Shown here: in pieces, positions 3,511-51,600 of the stretch
Position numbering within the stretch: the stretch's first letter is position 1
Layout: every line of letters starts with the position of its first letter
Assembly: GCA_030141605.1 (NCBI GenBank)
Contig: JAQGDQ010000588.1
Coordinates: 1 to 64,000 of the forward strand
Direction: 5' to 3'
DNA: 64,000 nucleotides
Source of the DNA: Tubiluchus corallicola
Taxonomy: Eukaryota > Priapulida > Priapulimorpha > Priapulimorphida > Tubiluchidae
Notes under the pieces: model-generated
The model's database searches: none
The model's input: only the letters and a program-made list of their open reading frames with translations
Told to the model about the DNA's origin: nothing
Made by a program: the position numbers and the translations under genes

Positions 3511-4001
3511 TTAAGCTTTGATCTGAAGGAATAATAACTCACTGTCCATTTCATCTTTGTGCATACCACATAAAATCAAGTGAAATTATAATGACACCAA
3601 CATTAACTGATTAAGATTTAAAATTATTAGAATCTTCCAGAAACAGTAAAAGCGGATGTTTACAAAAAAGAATGGATTCGTATTCCTAGTCACTTCCTTC
3701 ATTACTTTCAATTGAAGTGTTTAAAATATTATTTAGAAGTATAAGAATAAAGTCCACTGTATCATTAATTTTTATGCAACTCGGCACACTGCAAGATGGA
3801 ATCCAGCACCCAACAGTAATGTGTACCCAACATTGGTATTTGTATTGAACATATGCGGTGTAGTAGAATGTACAGTATATGGTGAGTATAGAACTACAGT
3901 GCAGGCCTAATGCCAAGTACTACGACTAGTACTACTACTAGTAAAGGAACAAGAAAAATCCCAAAAAATTTTAACAGTCCGCTGTGTCTTAAGTACATTA
4001 C

Positions 4002-4151
4002 TTGTTTATATCTTCCGTAAAAATATAACAGCTGATCACTGTGCAACTTAGATGTCAATTGTTTCAAATTTTCAGCTGCCTTCTGAAAAGAAATTTCTAA
4101 ATTTTCATTTAGAATGCTAATGTCCAAAACATCGTCCACAGATGCAGCCAT
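4002..4151 (-). CDS. ACBD6: Acyl-CoA-binding domain protein, ACBD6-like, first coding exon
   Basis: This minus-strand exon encodes 50 residues from ATG at 4151 (A at -3, G at +4) to a donor GTAATG at 4001-3996, ending exactly after a codon. Residues 21-50 match the first half of an acyl-CoA-binding domain: SFQKAAENLKQL (helix 1) and DQLLYFYGRYKQ (helix 2, with the conserved YxxYKQ). ACBP proteins bind long-chain acyl-CoA in the cytosol; ACBD6 proteins add ankyrin repeats. The acidic leader before helix 1 and the QLLY(L/F)Y(A/G)RYKQ block resemble ACBD6 more than short ACBPs. The remaining exons were not found and are probably beyond the left edge. A plain ACBP or another ACBD paralogue is possible. 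Confidence 0.72.
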
Positions 4152-4211
4152 AATTACTTTAGCAATAGGCGCTGTCTTTGTTACGACTTATGAACTCCCT
4201 CCAATACAGCG

Positions 4212-6029: not shown

Positions 6030-6899
6030 TTACAGAAAATCTTTTTCACAAATATATTGTTGTTCATGTAAACAATTCATGTCATTCCACTTGTAATCCA
6101 AGTCAGCCACTAGATCAAGACATTCTTCCTCAAAATGGCTAGGTTGCCCTTCTGACCAATAAGTGTAGACAAAATCTTGTTCATCTGCTGCCCATTTCCA
6201 CCGATCGTTCACAGAATGACCACCTGCCCAGTAACGACCCCACTGATTATGTAAAGCATGGCTTACTAACCAATTACTAACAGCTCTCTGTTTTCCTGCT
6301 GAATCTATCTTCAAGAGGGTAGCGTTTAAACGTTCACAGTCTTCTAATGCATCACTCCAAGATTTTTGTCTAACGAAGATAGCAACACACCATCTGCACT
6401 CAATAGGTGCAAAGCCATGGCCGAAATTGTAGCAAGCCTCTGTCACGGGATCCACTAAGACACTTTTAGTATTTTCGTGGACAGAACTGAAGTTCAAACC
6501 AGATTGTATTGACTGCACAGCATTCAGAATGACATCAGTTTTCGCGCTGAAACTATTTACTTTTCTGTACAAAAGGTTTATCTCAGTGCTTTGCGCTTGA
6601 ATCCATGTCCTTAGATCCCAAGCATCTCGCTTTAATTCCTCTAATAAACGCATTTTTTGGCGAATCTCATCTAACCGTGATATTAATCCTGCCAACGAGC
6701 CATCATTTGCTGACAGCGATGATAGCTTTTTTACAGATTCGTTAATAGAATTGATGCTATTGTCCAAGCGAGTAACATCATCCACTGAACAAAGTTGTAT
6801 AAGACTCTGTCCACTTTCTTGCTGGAGAGAGCTACACCGTCCCAAAATCACTACACTGCAAATACAAACTAAGTGGAAGCCTTGCAAAGAGGCAGCCAT
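6030..6899 (-). CDS. Secreted C-type lectin domain protein, single exon
   Basis: An intact 289-residue minus-strand protein starting at ATG 6899 (G at -3, G at +4). Residues 1-22 form a signal peptide with a hydrophobic core. Residues 38-135 are a long helical neck of heptad character, suggesting an oligomerising coiled coil. Residues about 168-286 are a C-type lectin domain: C188 pairs with C284 and C260 with C276 by family rule, with YWAGG (224-228) at the WIGL position, EGQPS (250-254) at the sugar-specificity loop, and WNDMNC (271-276). The loop reads Q-P-S rather than EPN (mannose type) or QPD (galactose type), so ligand choice is unclear, but the WND calcium motif is present. No intron breaks the lectin domain. 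It could be a defence lectin or an adhesion protein. Confidence 0.9.
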   Translation of the reverse strand: MAASLQGFHLVCICSVVILGRCSSLQQESGQSLIQLCSVDDVTRLDNSINSINESVKKLSSLSANDGSLAGLISRLDEIRQKMRLLEELKRDAWDLRTWIQAQSTEINLLYRKVNSFSAKTDVILNAVQSIQSGLNFSSVHENTKSVLVDPVTEACYNFGHGFAPIECRWCVAIFVRQKSWSDALEDCERLNATLLKIDSAGKQRAVSNWLVSHALHNQWGRYWAGGHSVNDRWKWAADEQDFVYTYWSEGQPSHFEEECLDLVADLDYKWNDMNCLHEQQYICEKDFL

Positions 6900-6960
6900 C
6901 ACCCACGTAAATAATGCACTGCAAATAAATGAACTCAGTCAGGCTCTATGAATTGGACTG

Positions 6961-13540: not shown

Positions 13541-15021
13541 TGAGTAAATCATTGTATTAAATTTATTGTCAGGCTTCAATACGTTAAATGTTGGTGAAGT
13601 TAGCTGAACAGCTAGGTATATAAAGTATATAACTTCTCAAATATTCACAAGTATTCAGTAATATGTGAGCAGTTACTGTACTTTACATAAATATTCACAT
13701 AATTACAAACAACTGCTAACTTTATAGCGGCGCGTTAGTCACTGGAAAATATGAACCTGAAAAACATGGAAAATATAATGTATAGAATATTATTAAAAAT
13801 ATTAGAATGTTATAAAAACATTTTAATATTTGACACTAATGTGACATCAAATAAATTCAAGTTTCAAAAAACATCATAATTTTAATTGTTGTTTCTCTGT
13901 TTTCAATTTAATATATTCATTGAAATTTGAAAGCTAATGAGTCGATTATTAAGTCACTGACGTTGGAAAGTATTTTAAAAATAAAAGACGGTAATAAAGG
14001 TGTGAACTACAATTATCGAAATTATTGCCAATTTACGATGGTTTTTTACGTTACAATTTTTTTCGTTTTAACAGATTTTTATATTACTTGTCTTGTGGCT
14101 TATTGCCAGGTTATTGATGTATTTTAAATTGCATTTTATCGTTTATCACTCACGTGTTTGGTTTAGTTACTTTTTATTAGATTATTTATCTCGATTTTCT
14201 TAGATGTTTCTTTTGTGTTTTTACTATTAAATGTGACTGTCTTAGTTTTAAGATGTGGGCACAGAACCTTTTTGTAAAGAACCTATTTTATAGATTAAAA
14301 AGTCTTCTGTATAAACATTTTCCTGGAATAAATAAGAATAAAAATGGACTTCTTTTTTTCATTTCAGTCACTCCTTTCGGTCTATAATGCTAATCATAGT
14401 ATTTAAAGTTGAACAGAATGAGTGCTCTTTGTTGTTTATATAATATCAAAACAAGCTTGACGGAAAGCGTTTCTAAACAAGCTACTTTATAAGCCTTAAA
14501 TGCTTACCTAAACATTTTGTTTGTGCACTAAAATATTTTCCACAGAATGAGAGGAAAATCTCATTGAGTCGCGAAGATTGACTAATCACTTTGGTAATTC
14601 GCCGCCTTTGATCTGTTCCTGCTCGCCTTCCTTAGAGCTTGTGGTTGGCTAATTTAACGCATGCGCAACTGTAAAAGGCAGTATTTTCGTACTGGGCAGA
14701 GCTTCTTGCAAAATTATGCTTCTCAGGAAATGTGTTGTTGCGGAATGGTAACGGAGTGACAAGCATGTCATAATTTTTTAATCGCTTTTATTCTATATTT
14801 TTGCTGCTAGCGATTAATATTATCATAACTATGTGTGGCATTAGCAAACAATAACAACGCAAACTACTTGTACTATTTTTGTCTAACAACAAACTGTATT
14901 AGTGCTCAAAAGGAGCGTTGTCATATTCGAAGTCATATATTATATTATTAAGTACTCAGTATAATTCATAAACTCTGATAGTGATAAATTATTGTGCCGT
15001 GATACTACATCAGTCGCATAT
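13541..15021. other. Upstream region of the Not gene
   Basis: No other gene seen. A CGCATGCGCA sequence near 14658-14667 resembles half of an NRF-1 site. A GC-richer patch around 14580-14720 is the best candidate for the promoter region, about 350 bp before the ATG. No TATA box was placed with confidence. Confidence 0.35.
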
Positions 15022-18000
15022 ATGTATACGCAAGATCCTAAAATGCAAAGTCAAATTGTGATTCCGTTTAATTATTCCTACGCAGCTGCACTCAGCGTAA
15101 ACGTAGCTGTACCTTCACCAGGGAATATAACAAACTATCGCGTCTCCGGCCGTCCTGAGCAACCCAGGCCACATATTGTCCATGTTCCGTCACACACACC
15201 AGTACAATCACCACTGTCCCCGCCGGCGACAGCAACCAGTTTTCCGGGCATGCCTCCAGAAGAGAGTACTTCGCCGACGAGTTTAAAGTCGTTTTCAATT
15301 GAAGCCATTTTAGGACTAAAGCAAACTACATCTCACTTGCAATGTGCCGCCGGTTCTAGGTATTACCCCTATCGCATACCTGGATTTCATCATAAACTAG
15401 CAGCTTATTACTCCAATCAAAACCGTTTTGCTGGGACACTTGATAGCACATTGGCGTTACCAAGCGAACATGTTAACTCTGAACAACAAAAACTGCAGGT
15501 AAAAAACAGACAGAACGCCAAACGACACCAAGAACAAACAGAAGCGATAGGCTACGTGCAAAAGCAGCATCAATTTAACCCAGAATGTTTAGAATCAAGA
15601 ACAAAAGGTACGTGCTATAATACACAAAACTTGTTCGAGATTGAAGCGAGGTATAACTTATAACTATGATTCTAAACATTTCATTTTATTTCACCTACTT
15701 GTGATTTTCTATTAATATTCTGATAACAATGTTTTTGAAGCTCTTTTTAAAATAGTAAGTAAATATTTGAATTATATTTCTTGCCTGATTCGACCAGGAA
15801 TAAAAAACATGTGAACTGACGGCGGCGACGACGAGACGTCTGTGGCGGTAGCACTTAACAAGCTATACATGTGTGATATATGACAAATTTTCCAAATTTC
15901 CTTTCTGATATAGAAGAAAAAGAAAACAGAAAACAATTGGCTTATTAACATATTCGTTTTTTTCTTCGGTTTAGGTGATTTTAAATTTCACTAATGAAAA
16001 GCACCTCATAAGATGCATAAATGTAAATTTTTTTTATGAAAATAAAGTATCGCGTATTTGCCAATACATCAATATATGATCAAACCCAAATAACTTTTTG
16101 TCGAAACTTGTACTTTTTTGTACAATAGTTAATATATAAAGTAGTAGAGTAAAATAACACTGAAAAGAACTAAACAATATTTTTGGTCATACAGTTTCTG
16201 TAGTTGAAATTAAATTTTAGTTATTGAGAGTTGAACAGTCACTAAATAATCATCATAGGCGTACGGGAGGAAGTTTCACAAGGTGGTGGTGGGGGGTGCA
16301 TAAGGAATTTGCCCTGAAAGTTTTCTAAGTTGCCGTAGTTTGAGTGATTTCCAAATAAGTGAAAATAATGAGCCACATAATTATGTAGGTATAGAATGAC
16401 ACATGTGTCTAAAAAACAAAATATTTACTGGTCTATATGTTTATGCTAATTTGTATTTTTTACGTATTTTTGTTCATTATAATATACACAGAGTGAAAGC
16501 AAATGACAGCTTTGCTAGAAAAGTAATCACAAGTAAATATAAACACACGTTTTAACATTTTAATCAATATGATTATATTCTTTGCGTTTTTAAAGTTTTT
16601 TCTTTCATTGTTGTCAGAAATCGAAATTAAAATTAACAAATTAACGAGGGGTGAAAAAGAAATGAGTTAAGACACCATTCTCATATTGAAAAACCAAAAT
16701 GGATCGTACCCCTGTTCATTTCTGAGTACCCCACATTCATGAGTATTTGTTTAAAAATGTATAAACTAAACTTGTGAACTAGTGAGATAAATTTGATAGC
16801 ATGCACTATTATTAACTTTAAAATTATTAAAAGCTAAAAATAATTCGTAGTACAATAAACTCTTTATTTGCTGCCACTAAAAAGAGTTGATGCACTACGT
16901 AAACAGTTTTTGAATGTTGAAATCTTACATTTTGAAATTTTAAAACAGAATTATATGCCCTGAAAATGTACAATTCATTTGTCTTGGGAGGGCAAACGCC
17001 TCCCCCCTCCCCCGACCACCACCTTGTACGCCTACGATAATAATTAAAGTATTATTAACAAAGTTGAAGGTTTTAATTCTCAAACGTATTTCGATTAGTT
17101 AAAACAGTAGTGTCAGCAATTCAGTATATATTTAAATTTCAAGTCTATATATTTGCAATATATTTTTATAATGCTGTTTTATCACCAAAAATACTAGTAA
17201 GTAACTCACAGTGATGCAGCTTTTAGACTTTTATGTTGCGATAAATAAAATAGGGATTATATTAATCCCTACGTATTGGAGACAAGTGAAGCTCTTATTG
17301 TTTGTTTCTATTCAACATTTGCTGGTATTTATATATAATGTGTATATACTCGTGATAAGCTTTTTTTGTTTTTCTGTGACGGCTTTGTAAAAACTTGATA
17401 CAGTGTAGGAGGTTTTTAAGTTACGTAGAGTAACCGGCGAGGTGAGTTGAAGAGCTGAGTCCAGAGATTCGATGCTATTTTTTTCTAAATGAATTATGTC
17501 ACAGACGCTTTTCCTGCCCTAGACGTCACTTAAAGACTCTTCCTGTCTCCCATTTAATTGTTTCCCTGGTTGCATATTTGCCAGAGCTGAAACGAAAGAC
17601 CCAAGTTTCTAATCGTCTTCTCTGTAATCATTAAAATTTTCTGCATCTGGAATTCAGTTAAAGTTTTCCCATTTCTACAATAATTCAATACCACTTCAAA
17701 TCTGTTACTAGAACAGAGGCGGAATGGTGAAAGTTTGTCTAACGTGAAGGCCGTCTTTCAGTGATTCTGCTGATACGTATTCAGTAAAAGCATTAAACAT
17801 TAAGCTACTTTAGTTTGCGTTTAAAATTAATTTTACGTTTTTATAAATTTATATTCTGACAGCGAAGAAGTTTGCGTTAGTCAAGTTAATGTTTTCCACT
17901 TTTAGCTATTGTTAATGAGTTCGCTTCATAAATTTACCCAGATTAAATGCAAATCCGCCAAAATCCAACCTGCTACTGTTTAGCATTTGTTGAACTCGAT

Positions 18001-20542
18001 AAAGTTACAATTTTTCACACTAACTAGTGTGGTTGATTAAAGACACGTGAAACATTAGGTTTAACTGTAATAAAAGAAGCCTGTTGCGTTGATGCGCTGC
18101 TAAACGGTCTTCATAATTGCAATTACAGTATCGCCATAAATTTACTGTAAGTACCTATTTTCTGTGAAATGTATAAGAATGGCTTAACTGTAGAATTTCA
18201 GCGTAATTATATAATAAAAAAGAACTAAAATTGCAAGCGTTATTTTGCTGTATAATTTTACTTAGTTGGGTAAGTTGATCGAAAATAATGACTAAACTGT
18301 GATTTGTCCCTAATAATACTGTGCAGTAAATTTTGTATACAACTATATTTTTACGAAGTTGTAACATACGCGCCATTAGAAGTCATTATTCTCTTTTTTC
18401 CCGCAAGCCGTGTAAGACCAATTAGTAAAAATAATGCTCATTCAGAGTATTCCATACAATGTTAAATTATAAACATATAATAATGTTTATATAAAAAATA
18501 AGTAAGTCTTATTATTAACTTTACCGGTATGCCTTATAGGAAGGGTTTTTTGCAATTATCTAGCTATTTTTAATTAGTTATTTAGCTCTAGATAAATACT
18601 AACTAGTATCCTTAAAAGCATTTTCCTCCAAGTCGGAACCATATGCAATGCCAGTCAATATGATTTCTATGTCATAAACTTCTAACTTTTCGAAATATTA
18701 TCAAAATCTAAAGGAAAATGCAATGCGGTGCCACAGTCAGAAAATAAACAGAGCTGACTCAATATAGATCGAAACCATTTGCTTGAATCAATGTAGTGGA
18801 AACTTATCAATATAGTGGAAACGCAGAACAAATCATAACTCTACATCTACCGAAATTATGCATAACTATATCCAGTTCCGTCAATCTATACAGACGTACA
18901 CTAACAAAATTAACATAATGTTAGATAGACCCTGTAAGCGACGATACTTTGTTCTATAATAATACTAATAAAGTTATTTTAATTACAGATAAATTATTGT
19001 CGGACGGAGGCGCTGGGAAATCCGGTAAAGCGAAGCGAATTCGGACGATATTCACGCCGGAGCAGTTGGAGCGATTAGAAGCGGAATTTGAAAGGCAGCA
19101 GTATATGGTGGGAACAGAGAGACTGTACTTGGCTTCTGAACTCCAATTGACAGAAGCACAGGTTTGGCATCTTACGTACTTGTTGCTTTTGTATTTTGCG
19201 TAGGCCGTACATTACCTGTTGTAGAGCAGAGACCTGCGCTCCGATCCATGGATGGATTGAGATTGTCTCGGGTCGGATGATACTTGCAGAATAGTATTTC
19301 ATTTACTTTCGCGATTCATCTTTGCCTTTGTGATGAAAATGAAATAGTTTATTAATACTTTTGTTATTTATTTTTGTTATCTAGATGTTTATTATTGATA
19401 CAGTAGTCATTTTCAACAGAATTAATCAGTCGTATATAGAATGATGAAAGTATACCAGCGCCTATCAATGAAGAGCAAAAAAGCTTTTATTTAGTCTCGA
19501 GTATTAGGTTTCAACCAAGGTTATTCTATGTTATAGGCAGTTAGTGCTGCAATTAAAAATTCTCGTGTTTTATACGTGATTCATGTGTTATTTTATTAGC
19601 TCTGCGTCGAGTTGTTTATTATAAGAATAGAAGTTTGCACCCATTTATGTGCTAGGATAATAATAATTATTGTGAAAAAAGTAATTACCGTATTTTCCCG
19701 TGTATAAGAGACCCTTTTTTGCTCAGAATTTTCACTTTAAAAATAGGGGGTCTCTTACACATGGGAGTAAGTCTTTTCAATAAGATGCATAAATTGTGAC
19801 ACTAATGATTTTAAAGAAATAAGTGCTCTACAACTGTTTTGCGTGTCGCGTTCGACTATGAAGCAGTTGTAAGCAATACAAGCATCGTGACACAGGCATT
19901 ATCTCCTCGTTTTCTCTTTTCCTGTCAGGTACGCACTTTAATATATACCAGTACTCTTTTTCTACAACACATTAACTGGTTTTATTTTGTTTTCAGTACC
20001 GCACTGAGTTGAAAAAAGTTGTACTTTACCCTCTAAAAATGTCCGTCTGAAAAAACTTTTTTCCAGAATTTTTGCCTAAAAATTGAAGGGGTCTCTTATA
20101 CACGGGAAAATACGGTAGTAAAAGCATTAATCAGGTAAAAAGTTAATATCTTTTGTGGAGTTACTAAAACAAGAACTCAAATTTTACAATAGTACTGTGA
20201 AGCTGTGAACCTATTGTTATGCAGACTCAAAAATAAAACATGTGGGATTCGTGTAAAATTAAACAAAACTCATTTCATTGTTTTCATTTTTAAATCTTTT
20301 ACCGTTGCGACCCGCATCAGTTCGTACCTTTAGATTATAAACAGAACCATATAAGTGCATTTAAGAATTTATTTCTCATTAATTTATAGGTAAAAGTTTG
20401 GTTTCAAAATCGAAGAATAAAATGGCGGAAACAGCATTTGGAAATTCAACACGCTAAACTGGCACAGCTGGGCTTGCTTTCAGGACAGCAGGATGAATAC
20501 GAATCTGAATCGGATAGTGAAATTGTTAGCGAACAAGAATAG
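15022..20542 (+). CDS. Not: Not (notochord-type) homeobox transcription factor, complete, three exons
   Basis: Exons: 15022-15607, 18989-19161, 20390-20542; 303 residues plus stop. Phases match: G|AT makes Asp196, and the second intron falls exactly between homeodomain positions 44 and 45, a common homeobox intron site. The homeodomain (210-269) has Arg5, Phe8, Trp48, Phe49, Gln50, Asn51 and the Not-type blocks [19 protein letters not shown] and [10 protein letters not shown], then [12 protein letters not shown]. An Eh1-like repressor motif FSIEAILG lies at 91-98, as expected for a Groucho-recruiting repressor. The C-terminus is acidic (ESESDSE). The protein would act in the nucleus; Not genes pattern axial mesoderm or ectoderm. 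Start: first in-frame ATG; Met8 (15043) has a better context. Donor 2 is weak (GTTTGG). Both introns carry transposons. Confidence 0.93.
16252..17038. mobile_element. Inverted-repeat element in Not intron 1 (TIR starts ATC(A/G)TAGGCGTAC)
   Basis: The left end reads ATCATAGGCGTAC then, after a 14-base insert, AAGGTGGTGGT and a G-run. The right end is the inverse: C-rich, ACCACCACCTTGTACGCC, TACGAT. The element is about 787 bp with no coding region. Flanks read AATAAT on both sides, offset by one base, so the target duplication is uncertain. Superfamily not assigned. Confidence 0.75.
19688..20115. mobile_element. MITE in Not intron 2, 27 bp perfect TIR, TA duplication
   Basis: The two 27-base ends starting CCGTATTTTCCCGTGTATAA are perfect inverse copies, flanked on each side by TA (19686-19687 and 20116-20117), which suits a Tc1/mariner-like element. 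Length is 428 bp, with no coding region. A second inverse partner of the left end at 19747-19772 (GGTCTCTTACACATGGGA, slightly diverged) makes an additional terminal hairpin. Confidence 0.85.
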
Positions 20543-34355: not shown

Positions 34356-34679
34356 GTAAGCTGAAGAAATCTGAATTAGTTTAATCAGCTTGTGCTTACT
34401 GAATTACAAAAAATCACAAACTCCACAAGTTATCTCATAATTTTCAAGTGAATGGCGGCTACTATCATGCCTGAAATTGTCTACACAGCAGTAGTAGAAA
34501 TTAACTCCATACTTTATAGACTGTTTTTTGCAAATTTTTTTTGTTATATTTTTTTAAGTTTAAGTGATAACGGTAAAATTAACCCGATAATGTAAGTCAA
34601 CGTGTCTTTTTCTTTAATCCAATATACCAGTGGAATTAGCATAAATGGAATTGTTATAAGTTTAGTTTTTACAGAAAAA

Positions 34680-36433
34680 ATGGAAAAGCCAGAAGAATTT
34701 ACGGCCAGCAAACTGAGTGAAGGGGACCTTATAAAGGAAAAAGATAGTCAAATAAAAACATTAGATGAACTTAAGGAAGAGTTGTCAAGCATGATCAGCG
34801 ATATGAATAAAGCCTCATGTAAGGACATGTTATGAATCATATTGGCTAGTATGCTAATACAGTCTTTGCACTATTCATTTCTGGTTGAGTAATAATTATA
34901 AGCTTTATTAAAGTAAATAATTATTTTATGCACAATGTTAACACAGGAATCCATAATGTTCCAAATTTTTTTTAAACATAATGTTTTGGAAAATAGAAGC
35001 AAACTGTTAGAATAATATTTTATGTTACATAAATTATGTACTATAGCTAAAGCCACTGACTCCAAATATGGTCTGTGTTAGGTTGTAGTAAATAAATTAA
35101 GTTGCAACAACAAGAATTACACCAGAATTACATAACTGCTAACTTTGTAAGACATTCTTATCTTTTGCAATAACTCGATAATGACTGGTATTTGAAAATT
35201 ACTGATACAACGCACAAAAATAATAATTAAAAAAGCACATTGCATGAAGAAATTCCCAGAATTTCTCAGTTGTAAGCCTGATTACAAAGGCTTCATCTAC
35301 TGTCTTCTGTTTGCTTGGTTCTATTCATCTCTCTTCAAATTTATGCTAGTATTATGCTTGTGCTCCATGTTGTGACAAAATGTTCAGTTACTCCTTATTT
35401 GAATCATTTCCTGGTTTTCCTTCTTGATTAGCTAATGTAGCTATTCTGTTAATTAAGTTATGTATAATAACTGGTTAACTGCCCACCAGTTGGGTATACC
35501 AACTGGTGGGCAGTTAACCAGTTAGGAAGGCAGTTTTCCAAAATGCTTTGTGACTCGAAAAATTTTAGCCAACATCACTCATGTCCATTGACTAGTCATT
35601 ATGATTGTATTAGAGTAATCTGCAAGTAGAAGTGAAATTCCTACATTAAGAGAACTTAAAACATATTCTATTGTTCTATCAATGTTTTTTACAAAGCAGC
35701 TGTTGAGTAATTTCTGTCAGTTTGCAAATCCACCAGGTGTTTGTTTTTAACTTATAATCAGGCTGCATAAGATTATGGATATCCATAAAATAAGACCAAA
35801 AATTCATAAAATAAAATTTGAAAAATCCATAAAATAAGAAATGCATAAAATAAAAAAAATATTTTTTTGTGATTTTTTGTACAAAATAAGGCAATCAAAA
35901 TTCAATACAGGCATTGGATCGCAAACTTCAGCCTAGAGGGCATTCTACATTCGTACCAAATAGATGAATTATTTGAACTGTAGTGATGAATTACAAGTCA
36001 TAAAATTTGATTAAATTTGAAGCGATATGAAACCGATAAAATTAAAACGAAACTGATAAAATTAAAACTAAGTCCAGCGTGTTTAAAAACATGTTTCAAG
36101 CACTGCTGTTTTTACTTTTTAATTGATTTCCCCCTAGGAATCTCGTTCCAGATATAGTCTATTTCTTATTTTATTGATATCCATAAAATAAAATTTCAAA
36201 AATCCAAAAAATAAGCTATTTTATTTATTTTATACATATCCATAATCTTATGCACCCTGCTTATAATACTCATTTGTTTTTGTTTATAATCAGTACAGTG
36301 CCGCCTGATGCAGCTAGACCTTGTAACAGAATTTGATCCTGAGATCACTCATATAGTGAAAAAGACCACAATAAACTGTGAAAGCTGTGCAAGGGCAATT
36401 GACTCTGTAGAAAAGGAGAAGATCGGAAAGTGA
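34680..36433 (+). CDS. SYCE3: SYCE3-like synaptonemal complex central element protein, two coding exons
   Basis: Exons 34680-34818 and 36294-36433 encode 92 residues. The donor CAT|GTAAGG and acceptor TCAG|TAC leave T|TA, so the frame is kept. ATG has A at -3 and G at +4, and an acceptor (TTTTTACAG) lies five bases before it, so there is probably an upstream leader exon. The protein is short, charged and helical. Residues about 35-63, with SDMNKASLQCRLMQLDLV, align without gaps to the core of vertebrate SYCE3 (E-M-x-K-x-S-x-Q-x(3)-M-x(2)-D-x-V), and a D/N-P follows at the same place; vertebrate SYCE3 is 88 residues. SYCE3 helps build the central element between meiotic chromosomes in the nucleus. 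The match is from memory and the protein is short, so a different coiled-coil protein remains possible. Confidence 0.6.
35468..35524. repeat. 57 bp palindrome, 26 bp perfect arms, 5-base loop
   Basis: Arms at 35468-35493 and 35499-35524 are exact inverse copies starting TAACTGGTTAACTGCC; the loop is GTATA. It lies in the intron of the SYCE3-like gene. A transcript would fold into an uninterrupted hairpin. Confidence 0.97.
35759..36259. mobile_element. hAT-type MITE in the SYCE3-like intron, perfect 8 bp duplication
   Basis: The left end CAGGCTGCATAAGATTATGG and the inverse right end CAGGGTGCATAAGATTATGG match at all but one base, then both run into ATAAAATAA-rich sequence. Flanks are CTTATAAT on both sides (35751-35758 and 36260-36267), a perfect 8 bp duplication as made by hAT transposases. 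Length 501 bp, no transposase. It ends 34 bp before the coding exon, so the right copy of the duplication lies in the branch-point region of the intron. Confidence 0.93.
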
Positions 36434-39689: not shown

Positions 39690-41001
39690 TCACTTTGAAA
39701 GTTTGACTGTATAGTGTAATGTGCATCAAAATCCACGGTATTAGGGTATGTAATGTATAGATAAGGTCGCAGAATTATGTTTTGACGTTAAACGTTGGAA
39801 TACATATTGCAGTCCCGCTTCAGAAATTCAAATTCGGGACCTGCAATTAATTTTTAGTAAGACACGTTTATAATTTTCAGGATGTAATCAACATGGGCAA
39901 AAAGCCTACATGAACTATAGGCTTGGCCCTGTCGGTCTACGCCTACGGTAATAAGTCAAACTAAGATTTTTAAGCAGTGTGGGGAAAAGGAATGAGCTTA
40001 TGGTCTTCTACTCCCTTCCGCTATATAAAGTGAAATACTTAGTTTTAATCGGAGATTGTAGGCTGCAGTAAAGTTATTTTACTAAATTGTTAGGACAATA
40101 TATGTGTGCTTGCACCGCAAAACGTCTGGAAGTTGGCATGTAAGCTTTTTAGTTATTCACATATCCTGAATCTCTATTTCATAAGGATCATTTTGACGCC
40201 AAGTTCATCACTGTATGTTATTTCTAAGCAGAGATAAGCCATGTGGCTGTACACTGAAAAACAATCTTGCCAGAATAGCTGTTACAGCTTGCCATTGTTT
40301 TTGTCACGCTTCCACAAAAACACTTAGCAACCGTATGATTGAGCGGTTGCTATGGACTGTGCAAGAACACTTTGAAGTCATGTTTAAATCCTGTAGGGCT
40401 CTTCCAAACGAAGACCCAAACAGAAAAAATTGCAAGCAAAATGATAGCTTCTATGGGCTAGTATCAGAGTTTGAAAATACAGGTTTTTGACAAACGCCTC
40501 ACTAGTTCTTAAGCAGAGAAATGGGTAAGGAATTCTAAAATGAAATTTTTATTATTTTCTAAACAATTTCCTGATGTTTTGGTTCAAGAACATAAAGGTC
40601 CAATATATTTAGCATTTGTTTTTGTAAAAAACAAAAAATGATGTTTGATGCATTGTACTTTGAGGCATGATAATGCAGTTTTGACTATGCTGACTTGTGG
40701 ACGGTTTTTGGTTTGCAAGCGCACGTATATTATATAATAATTATGGTGTTATTTTTTAAATTGTAGTTTTTTCACTGTTGCTGCATTATTTAAAATTTAG
40801 AATAATATGGATGTCTATATAAAGTACATGTAATAAAGTAATTAGAATAGTTTTGTAAAACAGGGAACTTGTGAGTTGTCTTAAATGAAGAGAGAAAAAT
40901 ATTACATTTATACACATGTACTATTTTAAAATGCAAAAAACAACAATTTTGCCTGGAGTAAGGCAAAATCATACCTAGGTCAGGAATAATCAAACTTCAG
41001 T
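39690..41001. other. Intergenic stretch, one unrecognised open frame
   Basis: A 91-codon open frame at 40215-40490 (plus) with a Cys/His-rich patch (CHCFCH) shows no family I recognise and no splice context. About ten such frames are expected by chance in a window this size and composition, so it is not called as a gene. Confidence 0.4.
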
Positions 41002-41930
41002 AATTCATCTCCTGGTCCTGACAGTTATTATCCTTATTCATTACAGCAACTAGCTTATGAGAACTTGTGGAACCACGAACCTTTGTCTTTCACAAATCCT
41101 AGCTCTGATATTGTTCCTCCAGAATGGCTTGACATTAACATTACCCCAATATACAAAGGCAAAAGTTTACAGCCCTTACCGAAATCCTGTCATCCCATTA
41201 GTTTAACCTCGGTTATTTCTAAGATTTTTGTACGGATTCTGAGGCAGCGCATGTTACATTTTCTTTTGACCAATAATTTCGTATCACTAAATCAGTGCGG
41301 GTTTCTGTCTGAGCGGTCAACTGTAACGCAACTTTTGCAATGTGTAAATATGTGCTTGAAATCTATCGACATGGGTCATCCTCTTGATTGTGTGTATCTC
41401 GACTATGCACTTGACTCTGTCTCTCACATCAAGTTAATCTATAATCATCTTGGTTTTGATGTTCATACTGTTCAGTGGCTTTCTGGGTTTTTGTCGAGCA
41501 AAGACAGCGAGTTATACTTAATGGCATATCGTCTACCTGCACTGGTGTAATGAGTGGAGTTCCCCAGGGAACGATCTTGGGAACCATTATTTTCCTGCTA
41601 TATATAACTGACTCCACTAGTGCCGTATCAAATAGTAATCTCTACAAGTATACTGATGACGCCAAAGTGTTATCCTATGACGCTGACCTATTACAAGCGA
41701 ATATCTCGTTATTAGCTTTGTGTGCATCAGACTGGCAGTTAGCCCTCAACACTGAGAAATGTAAAGTCATTCACTTTGGTTTTGACAATCTTAATTGTTA
41801 GTACAATGTTAATGATGTGCAACTGAATTCCTCTGACTGTGAATGTGACCTGGGAAGTGTTCATAGCATCAAATTTAAAATTTGCAGCTCATTGTAACAG
41901 TATTGCCAAGAATATTTGGCATATCATGCA
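41002..41930 (+). pseudogene. LINE reverse transcriptase fragment, frameshifted
   Basis: Three overlapping frames give an RT palm: SSPGPD near 41005, SLTSVISKIF and NQCGFLSERS, a decayed motif A (LDYALDSV in place of LDFSKAFDSV), SGVPQGTILG (motif B), and YTDD in place of YADD (motif C). It continues through KCKVIHFG and DLGSV to LKFAAHCNSIAK near 41900. Frameshifts occur near 41500 and after 41800. This copy is older than the one at the left edge and lies 0.7 kb upstream of UBAP1. Confidence 0.85.
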
Positions 41931-45600: not shown

Positions 45601-48600
45601 TTTACTGTGAGAATTTTATTAATAATTTTATTGCATTTATTGTTTTTTTATCACTAAGAAATGTTTTTGTGTTGTTAAAGACGTTGGTTTGCCCTAAAAT
45701 TAATAAGGCCCATGAAAATTTTATTTTAATTAAAAAAGTTGCACTTCTGTTTTGTTCTAAGTAAATATTAGGTAATCATCTCAGTATGTTGTACATGACT
45801 GTTATACCTGTCACAGTCATATCAGTCTGTCACTATATTGCTTAACACTGGAAAAAATTAATTAGCTGCAATTACTAAATGTTTTAACTTTAAACAGAAA
45901 CTGCCTAAAATTTTAGCATTTTGTAACTAAGTATTAACAAGTAATAGTGGAGTGCTGGGATGAGTGTTTTATTATAGATGGTTAGTGCAATCTATTTGTG
46001 GCTCTCAAAAACACAATAAGCATAAAATAGTCACAACATTGTTTTTCTCTTTATTTGGGGATTCTATGAAGTAACAATGAGAATTTGATCTTTACAGTGA
46101 TATCTAGTGTGCATTAGAAGCTTTTTATAATATCTTCACTGTCCTTAGTTGCAACAATTGTTTATTCACACTATTATTGCATTATGTAAAATTTTTCTGT
46201 GGCGTATAAATTATTACAAAAGTTTAGTGTGCAATATTTAGTAAACATGATGTCCTTTTCTAATCACAATATTTGATATGCCCAAAAACTTAACTGTGTT
46301 ATGGCCATTAGTGCTATAATGCTGTTATTCACTGTAATGTAGCCTGCTGATAAATTTGCTAACTTTATAACGTACTGTCGAACTAATGGTTGCTGAACTG
46401 TGACTGAAATGCTACACATTTTAAAGCATTTCCTAATTGCAATTTTGTTGCATAGTATAGTGATTTTCATGGTACTGGTTGTTTGTGTTCTTCTAAGCTA
46501 TGATTTTTTGCATGCAGGCAATTAAAAGTTCCTCTGCATCTGATGGAGAAGATAGTTTAGGTGCTAGTGATGACAGTGAACAAGCAGGCTCGTCGACTGT
46601 GGAAGGGTCAGCTGGTACTGGTGATGCTATGGAAACTGGTGATACTGACATTAACACAGTAGATTCAAATGTGTCTCCATCTGAGTTGCCATCCAGTCCT
46701 CGCATGCGCATGAATGCAGGTTTGTTACAACCTGTTCCGGCGAAACCCATGCAAAAAATAACTGATGATTCAACCAAGCACACATTGATAAATCTAGCAG
46801 ATTTCGAGAACAACACTGATCCTTTTGACAGCGCAGAATTGAAAACCATAAATGACATAGAGGAATTAAAAAATGTTTTACAAGGACCTGCTCCAGCCAC
46901 GCATTTACCATCTGTGACGGGGTATAGTGCTCATACTCAGGTGCTTTCAGGTTCTTTTGACGCTTGCTATGGACCACATCCTGTATCAGGTTTCACTGCT
47001 GGACAAGTGTTGCCACCAATTTCTAGTGACGACTCACTGAGTAATCAACCAATAAATACTTCAGATGTTCAAAGTGCGTATTATAAAACTTTGGTAAATG
47101 GTAGCAGACCATCTACTTCTGTCATACCTTGTAGTTACCAAACTTTTCCATCTTCATCTAGTATGGTTTCAGCAATTTCAAGTTCTAGTGCTAGTGGACC
47201 AAGTAGCTTGCAGACTACTTATCAGTTTATGCCATCGGACACAGCAGTAGGAACGTCACAGTACTCTCAGTACTTTCTACAAGGTTGGGGACATGACCCA
47301 CCAAATAGGAGATTTGCACGTGGTTCTTTCGGGTAATTACTTATTTACTGAAAAAAGTCAATTACATTCTTCCCGAAAAAGTTTCTAATTCTGATAATGA
47401 AAGACATGCTATAGTTTTCAGCTATTAATGTTGCTGGAAACAACATAAGTATATATGTGTTTAACAATTATCATAAAAATCTTTTAGTGCAGATTTATAT
47501 ACATGTATTTAGCAAATTCTTGTTTCAGCATCGGATGTTTGGTGCTTTTTAAAGGTTTTTACCAATTTTAGTGTACTTATTTTGCTTCTTGGGCAATATC
47601 TGTGTCTGTATGTGATACAAGTGTAGAAATTACACTTTCCTAATGATTGGGATTCTCTGCTTAATAACAAATGAGTTAAGCAGTGTGTCCAATAACGTAC
47701 TCCTTTAACCAGTAAGTTTTTGCATGGTCTTTTTGGATATCTTAGAAATGCAAGCAAAGTATGCATAAAGTAGGCTTTAAGTAGTAATTATTTAATAGGT
47801 TTAGTAAGTAAATTTACCTCAAAATAAATGCTGCTACTTGTGAAAATCTATTGTTGATCCTTGTACATTTTATATCAGTAATCAATGCAAAAAGCTAGGT
47901 CATATGGTTAATATAACCAATCCAGTTGTAACTGTTAATGCAACACACAATTAAGAACTAGTTTGCCTCATGCTTTGTGTAAGCCTCAATTTTTTCTGCT
48001 GCACTTTTGAATTTACTCATGTGTATGTGTTATCCCAAACTGGAACTGACAGCATAAATTATACTTCACAATGTCCTTCTAGTGAACTGATTTGCAATAA
48101 AAATGAAAAAGACTGCCATCTAGCTGTCTGTAATTAAACGAGAAAGCATGACTACATTGTATTTTTTGTTCTAGTTCTGCAAAAGACTTGCCATTGTTGC
48201 GACCTATTGTTTCAAGTAAGAGCACACCCGATATATCTCAGGAAAATGGTGACATTACACCTGTGGAACAAATCCGTTCAAAATCTAGGTCACCCCCTCC
48301 TCGTCCTTCTAGTGTTGGTTCTGTGAAGTTACAGGTAAGTGCTGTGATTGATTATGTTGTATGGAAACTTGGTTTACTAGTCAAAATGTTGTTTTTTTAG
48401 TTATTCGAACTCATCAGCTCTTCATCAGAATAATTGAAAAATAATTTATATTGGCATTTCTGCCTGTCTATAAGTAATACATGCAGATGATATGATGGGT
48501 ATTGACTAAGTGGTTATTTAATTTGTTTTGATCTATAAATCTTGAAAATAATTATTTAATTAGTGTTTCGCTAATACTGTCTGCAACAAACAAAGTTAGA

Positions 48601-51600
48601 TAGTGTGTTCTTTCGTTTGGGTTGTTTTTTATAAAAGAACATTATTACTTATACTTTTAGGCCTGGAATCCATATGATCCATTACCCCCGACTCCGCACA
48701 TGCTTACCAGTCAACAGTCGTACTCCAGGTAACCTACTTTACCTTAATTAACTTACCATATCTTTCTTGCTGATTCAGACGTCATAAATTTTTATGTATA
48801 ATTCACCACGAACAAGGTCAGGGCCTGGTATGGACGCAAATCCAGAAATATAGAATTTGTGTAACAGTTGCTAGTGATAGTAGTTAATATTCTTCTTGAA
48901 GCTGGTGAAGTTGAAGTTAACAGGAAAGCTGACTTAAGTTGACTGACTAAAATTCCATAAATTTATAAGCCTGATGGACACCCAAGGATGGCCATGGTAA
49001 AATATGAGTAATTGAGTGTAATATAAATGTGTGTTGAGTAGACTGTTGGCACTTAGGAGCCTGCTTTCTCATAAATAGTTGTACTAATTGGTAAATTAAC
49101 ATTCTTTATGTAGTAATATATTCATATTTAAATATTTAATTCTATACTTCTATAAAAGCAATATCGTAACTTAGTATTTAGTAAGTTATTATTGAGAATA
49201 TAGGCTTTGTCAATGTGGGTGAAAGAAAAAGTAGAAAGACTTAAGGTCTAGGTCTCTAGGATATATGCAAAGTGGTCAGTTGATGGAAAACTTGAAGACT
49301 GGAAACACCTATCGCTGGCAAGTACCTTTATAAGCAAGACAGAATTAAAAACAGTACAAAGCAGAATCTTGTTTATTTTCATTTTTTCCTAATGATCAAT
49401 TGATCTGACACTACAGCAAGAATAACTGCTGTATGTATATGCATTATTATATGTACGCACGCACAAACACACACGTATAAATCCTGTTAGTTTCATAAAA
49501 TTATGTTCTTTTGAATAAGATGCTATCATTGTGATGATGTTACCTTGTGCGAAATGTTTTTTTGTAGAATATGTTTTTTGATGTGTTATTTACAAAGTTT
49601 CTGTTTTGCAGACATTCAGCAGCTGGCGAGATGCATGAACCAAATCCTTTTGCACAGTTGAGTAGCAATGCACAATGTTTAGTAGACAGGCTGACTGATA
49701 TGGGTTTTTCAAGAGCTCTTACTGCAAGAGCCGTGCAAAAGATTGGTACTGATGATAAAAAGGTGAAAGCACTTAGTTACTTCATTATGATGCTAGGGTA
49801 TTACAATTGCTACATGTTGGTGTCAAGTGTCAACTCAAGCATTTTAGTATAACTTCAGAATTGGGAAATTAGTTTTTCAAAAATTGATAATCGCTGTAAT
49901 TAGTTTTATGCGCTGTGTGAGTAGTAAACGTTATAATCACTGAAATGTGCAAACAATACCCTGTGATTACCAACTGTGTGAAAATTAATGATGATATGAG
50001 AACTGAACTATATCAGTTGTTACAACACCAATTTTAATACAACAGAAGGAAAAATACAACACAGTAATGATAACTAAAAATATAACACAGCAATGATAAC
50101 TGATTCTGAAAAGAATGTGGTTACTTTTAATCACCAGTAGTCAAAAAAGAAGGTAACTTAGAAAGATTCATCTGACAAATAAAACCTGTTTCAGTTTGTA
50201 ATAAAACGTGGTAAAAAAATTATCAAAAACTGTCTGTACGGTACTCCTATGGCATCCAAATTCTAAACGTCCTAAAGTAAAATTTATGCCCTCTTTTTTA
50301 GTTATCTGTGGCCTTCTATGAAAAATATTCCACGTGCATATCTCATCCCTTTGCTGCAGTGATGTCAGAACAATGCTGAGTCGTGTCTGCAAAGCAGCTG
50401 CCACCTGAAGTTATGAATTGAAACTCGAGAACCTATAGCTAAGATTGCATTAAAATACTTGGGTAAATGCTCACACAACTAAATAAATCAAGTGGATGCC
50501 TTCTATATGCTTTTACTATTATCATTCATTACATATCGTAGCAGAATACCTTTTACAAAGCAAATAACTACAACCTAGAGGTGACGTAACATAATTCAAA
50601 ATAGTTTAACAACAATATTTGGTAACATTTTACAAATTTTTCATAAAATCTCATAAGCCTACAGTGTAGAGATGCCACAAACAAGCACATATCAATAATA
50701 AAATGCAAAAATCTAGTATGTGTCATTGGGCAAGTGCCAAAACCGTCTAATTGCAATAATAAACTTGTGCTTGACCTTCACAATCCAGATGAATTTAGTT
50801 TTCATAAACAACAACCACTAAAACTACAACAGGATGTAGGAAGTACAGACTTTTTCAATTGAGGAGGATTTGTGAATGAATTTGAGATCACATGATTAAC
50901 TTTACATATAAAATCAATTTCTTTTTGATATTTATATTGCCCCCCCCCCCAATTTTGAGTTAACAATGTGGATTAAATGATTAGTTTTCATTAGCTATGT
51001 TAATGGCGTACCATCAGGTATTATAGGATAAGTTACATCAATCACATATTTAGAAAACAAAATGCGATCACTTTGTACTTAATGTCTGCAGTTTGGGTAA
51101 CATTGAAGAGGGTTGGTGATAAGATAGTTCCTTGCAGTGTACCTAGCAAACAGAACATTTCTAGCAAGGATGGTTTGAAATAACTGTAAAAAGTCAAATT
51201 GAATTATCGGATAAAGGAGGCAACAGATAAGTGACAAATAGATAAGCGAGGACATTCTATAATTACAACTGCCATTTTAGCTATTACGTGTCTTTTCAGG
51301 TTGTTGATCATTTGTGTCAAGTAAATGTGATGGTTGAAAAAGGAATTTCTAGCATGGATGCTGAGGAAGGGTTACATCTTTTTGACCAAAATACTAGTAA
51401 GGTAAGATTTGCACATCAGTAACCGCAGAGGCACCCTAAATTGTGCCTATAGAGTTAGATGTCTCCATGTCTGTTGTACTAAATATCTTTCTTTATAGTT
51501 TAACAGTTTATTAATATCATTGTACCAATATACTAGCTTATCAGAAAAATGAAGATTAGCAAAATGATTGCTGTTGATCACATTATTAACTCTTGCTATA

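Follow-up and report, generated by a model that had tools for sequence, protein, structure and literature searches.

The window analysed here, bases 1-64000 of contig C176 in an assembly of 343.5 Mb and 2344 contigs, has a G+C content of 33.7% and carries on its forward strand two short open stretches that together probably encode a diverged SYCE3, a small component of the zipper by which chromosomes are paired in meiosis. An earlier note had proposed a two-exon model of 46 and 45 complete codons at this locus, and we found the exon coordinates, the donor, the acceptor and the open frame all as claimed. Translation of the joined exons yielded the 92-residue spliced product, without an internal stop (Table 1). 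The acceptor-like TTTTTACAG upstream of the start codon may mark where an intron of the 5′ untranslated region ends or, alternatively, may be a trans-splice site. A protein search of the assembly returned these two exons as the only SYCE3 candidate, with no second copy. Within the intron, the repeat search additionally detected a perfect 26-nt inverted repeat with a spacer of 5 nt (35468-35524).

Table 1 Features of the candidate SYCE3 gene and of the predicted SYCP1 gene; splice signals are putative and were read from sequence only.
Feature	Position	Strand	Description
Acceptor-like TTTTTACAG	34666-34674	+	ends five bases before the ATG
Coding exon 1 (candidate)	34680-34818	+	139 nt, 46 codons + 1 nt; frame open between ATG and GTAAGG donor; residues 1-46 and first base of codon 47; predicted alpha1 helix within
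Intron (putative)	34819-36293	+	1475 bp, phase 1; GTAAGG (at 34819) ... TCAG; acceptor TTTATAATCAG, last base 36293
MITE-like insertion in intron	35752-36266	.	42-nt inverted ends, 90% complementary (repeat search)
Coding exon 2 (candidate)	36294-36433	+	140 nt, 2 nt + 45 codons + TGA; end of codon 47 to TGA; would hold the end of alpha1, the proline loop and alpha2 if SYCE3
SYCP1 gene (predicted)	C250:56000-65999	-	many short exons; three joined pieces match Pfam SCP-1

Elsewhere in the window, a homeodomain exon was observed at 18925-19200 (+; Pfam E 1.4e-12), which by eye we take to resemble NOTO, and we assume that an upstream frame with an FSIEAILG motif (14965-15660, +) could be the first exon of this homeodomain gene. 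The frames at 46497-47333 and 49568-49849 (+) presumably belong to one probable UBAP1 gene; the latter gave a sub-threshold UBA-like match in Pfam (E 0.0098), and the former gave no Pfam match. On the reverse strand lie a gene for a C-type lectin domain protein (6033-6938; Pfam E 1.8e-12) and an acyl-CoA binding protein exon (3897-4187; Pfam E 1.5e-05, just under the cut-off), the latter presumably resembling ACBD6. Frames at 11-2596 and 40990-41798 (+) were judged by eye to be like pieces of non-LTR retrotransposons (endonuclease, reverse transcriptase).

Among 177,635 PDB sequences searched with the spliced product by phmmer, human SYCE3 was the top match (E 0.023, 18.3 bits), and the runner-up had an E-value of 0.38. 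Ras chains, found at E 0.44 and above, were rejected as matches of approximately 42 residues with noise-like scores. The alignment placed product residues 20-72 collinearly on residues 10-63 of the 88 residues of human SYCE3 with a single one-residue gap, and 13 of the 53 pairs were identical and 28 positive-scoring. The 18-residue gapless match to vertebrate SYCE3 described in the earlier note proved real and understated, since 39 residues (20-58 on human 10-48) align with human SYCE3 without a gap, and the in-register match runs on across the 34818/36294 junction. Most heptad hydrophobics of helix alpha1 are retained, with Ile25 aligned to human Leu15, and Pro62 aligns, after the one-residue gap, with the human loop proline Pro53, which passages of a structural study describe as shaping the closed loop (PMC6556580). 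The arrangement is also like that of mouse Syce3, a gene of 88 residues whose exons 2 and 3 hold the coding sequence (PMC3102746), in that there are two coding exons. In contrast, relative to human SYCE3 (PDB 4R3Q/6H86; PF15191), the candidate has an N terminus approximately 10 residues longer, lysine in place of Tyr11 and, as aligned, a loop with one residue fewer. Moreover, Leu51 and Leu54 occupy the positions of Trp41 and Tyr44, so that both aromatics are lost; in excerpts of two papers, these residues serve lateral self-assembly and the double-mutant mice are infertile (PMC6556580, PMC7614228). The pair is, however, a property of mammalian SYCE3 and may not define the whole family.

The proposed SYCE3 identity fared less well in family searches. 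Pfam returned DUF47 (E 0.0038), Synaptonemal_3 (E 0.016) and SR1P (E 0.034), all under their cut-offs, with the Synaptonemal_3 profile (PF15191) reaching 15.5 bits against a curated cut-off of 27. These values alone prove nothing, because six out of ten shuffles keeping the hydrophobic pattern matched a family at E 0.016 or lower, and two did so at E 0.0038 or lower. A better-scoring placement in another family had been named in the earlier note as an outcome that would refute SYCE3, and nominally DUF47 provides one, its E-value being slightly better than that of Synaptonemal_3. Nevertheless, DUF47/PhoU_div (PF01865) shares with the product just a helical stretch (residues 29-87) over 59 of its 214 positions, lies below its 24.4-bit cut-off and has a score of a size attained by two of the ten shuffles; we therefore rejected a DUF47 identity. 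The Synaptonemal_3 profile also had no advantage over the single human sequence (15.5 versus 18.3 bits), which counts against SYCE3, because true distant homologues usually score higher with a profile than with one sequence. Scanning the assembly with PF15191, exons being read singly, gave no candidates; this null result is no evidence of absence, because 14 controls read in the same way likewise gave no match. NCBIfam contained no family matching the product at E 1. Pattern searches for relatives yielded 24 matches in viral contigs and 74 in prokaryote genomes, none of them confirmed, as expected for an animal gene. In favour of the identity are the first rank of human SYCE3 in the PDB, the size, the single locus in the assembly, the two exons, the loop proline and the SYCP1 gene described below; against it are the sub-threshold Pfam score, the better E-value of DUF47 and the leucines at Trp41/Tyr44.

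We quantified how often such a match arises by chance by enumerating two-exon products on both strands of the window (GTRAG donor, YAG acceptor, intron length 40-3000 bp, product length 75-130 residues, a minimum of 25 codons per side, start at the ATG giving the longest frame) and scoring them against the human SYCE3 fragment from the phmmer alignment. The candidate ranked highest, at 17.2 bits, among the 207 products, which derived from 22 distinct first exons; the second, at 12.0 bits, shared its first exon, and products lacking that first-exon sequence reached 2.3 bits at best. In 20 Markov-simulated windows, the maximum was 7.6 bits. When the whole product was shuffled, 17.2 bits was attained in 0 of 5000 trials preserving composition, 0 of 5000 preserving position modulo 7 and 3 of 5000 preserving the hydrophobic pattern. 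Under the same three schemes, shuffling exon 2 alone reached this score in 1, 13 and 24 of 5000 trials, and shuffling exon 1 alone in 0, 2 and 199 of 5000. Accordingly, the exon 1 match to SYCE3 is largely a helix pattern. With the alignment held fixed, hydrophobic-pattern shuffles equalled or beat the exon 1 share in 1068 and the exon 2 share in 73 of 20,000 trials, and the values for residues 31-48 (assumed to be the 18-residue core mentioned above), the stretch before and the stretch after were 2660, 684 and 218 of 20,000, all of these counts favouring the observed value because the alignment had been optimised beforehand. Both exons contribute to the SYCE3 match. Of four shuffled queries run against the PDB, one had no match up to E 0.5; the best E-values of the other three were 0.065, 0.26 and 0.031, and the lowest of these came close to the 0.023 of the candidate.

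These controls bear on the alternative that the locus holds a genuine small gene whose helical product is unrelated to SYCE3 and resembles it through a general amphipathic-helix pattern. The ease with which hydrophobic-pattern shuffles of exon 1 recover the full score, and with which such shuffles attain the Pfam value of Synaptonemal_3, is what this alternative would lead one to expect. It accords poorly, however, with the rarity of whole-product shuffles that do so, with the in-register SYCE3 match that exon 2 has of its own, and with a top PDB match that is itself a protein of 88 residues aligned nearly end to end; we consider it unlikely.

Codon bias was scored with a table of 1092 codons from neighbouring and SYCP1 exons, chosen by eye; among 2693 open 45-codon stretches taken with overlap from presumed non-coding DNA, 4.3% equalled or exceeded exon 1 and 11.1% exon 2. 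For exon 2, a different frame scored higher once stops were skipped. The codon bias of both exons is mildly coding-like and constitutes weak support for a gene. AlphaFold2, run on exon 1 alone without relatives, predicted one helix over residues 14-45 (mean pLDDT 90.3); for residues 48-92 alone, also without relatives, confidence was low (mean pLDDT 58.5) and a helix appeared in the last part only. In this low-confidence model, the exon 2 peptide was non-helical over its first 27 residues, where the alpha1 of SYCE3 would continue. A chance pairing of open stretches beside splice-like sites, with no gene present, would fit the weak codon bias, above all that of exon 2, and the shortness of each exon on its own. 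Such a coincidence nevertheless leaves unexplained why the SYCE3 match spans the proposed junction and why the chosen acceptor is the best of those tried with the same donor (17.2 versus 12.0 bits), and we regard it as quite improbable. A decayed or non-expressed SYCE3 copy, to which the MITE-like element in the intron and the loss of aromatics essential in mouse SYCE3 might point, is highly implausible given that the frame and splice signals are intact and that the protein search revealed no second copy.

SYCP1 is the partner of mammalian SYCE3, and a scan of the assembly with the SCP-1 profile produced two weak single-exon matches, at E 0.272 (C1477) and E 0.44 (C250). The matched C250 frame alone gave an E-value of 0.00069 in Pfam, and joining three successive exon pieces of this locus, at approximate junctions, raised the SCP-1 match to E 7.5e-15 and 54.5 bits over 100 residues and 100 profile positions. 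Judged from these joined exons, the assembly that holds the SYCE3 candidate also encodes SYCP1; a SYCP1-type synaptonemal complex, the setting in which SYCE3 works, is therefore likely. SYCP1 also shows how faint such genes are when read exon by exon. The other weak match (C1477:641469-641660, minus strand; E 0.272) is probably another coiled coil. For TEX12, one match was found (E 1.96, 30 positions, one stop) and rejected, chance matches having occurred in two bacterial controls; the list of open reading frames showed no exon that would support it.

Together, these results suggest that the locus is a gene of two coding exons for a diverged SYCE3 orthologue, a reading that we hold to be likely but not established, because the curated profile threshold was missed and the junction is known from sequence alone. 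The sequence data show an open frame across two exons, a match to human SYCE3 that stays in register over both of them and exceeds chance, and a SYCP1 gene in the assembly; from these we infer the splicing, expression, fold, SYCP1 binding and meiotic role of the candidate. If the homology holds, the protein would work as SYCE3 does, possibly with another surface for self-assembly. As in mammals, two helices linked by the proline loop would build an intertwined dimer; once the loop opened, the chain would attach to the SYCP1 N-terminal coiled coil, remodel the SYCP1 lattice and bring in the other central element proteins, allowing homologous chromosomes to synapse.

Accounts of the age of SYCE3, as far as the consulted passages go, place it in vertebrates: it is present across all vertebrate classes (PMC3102746), is specific to Vertebrata according to Fraune et al. 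as cited by PMC4132317, and is listed among genes possibly arisen after vertebrates split off (PMC8132408). A literature search covering titles, abstract openings and some passages returned no report of an invertebrate SYCE3; SYCE3-like proteins of invertebrates may already be so named in databases. Its tiny size, its divergence and its division between two short exons would explain why such a gene had escaped notice. To judge from the assembly size, the low G+C content and the divergence of both SYCE3 and SYCP1, the animal studied here appears not to be a vertebrate. A COX1 search gave no match at E 0.001, and an FMRFGKR pattern had 0 matches, which speaks mildly against a mollusc or an annelid. 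On balance, we lean towards the view that SYCE3 predates vertebrates and that this lineage keeps a SYCP1-SYCE3 central element, with an SYCE3 that must assemble although it lacks the Trp41/Tyr44 patch on which mouse depends. If so, the SYCP1-remodelling subunit would be older than vertebrates, and the ancestral surfaces of SYCE3 would become distinguishable.
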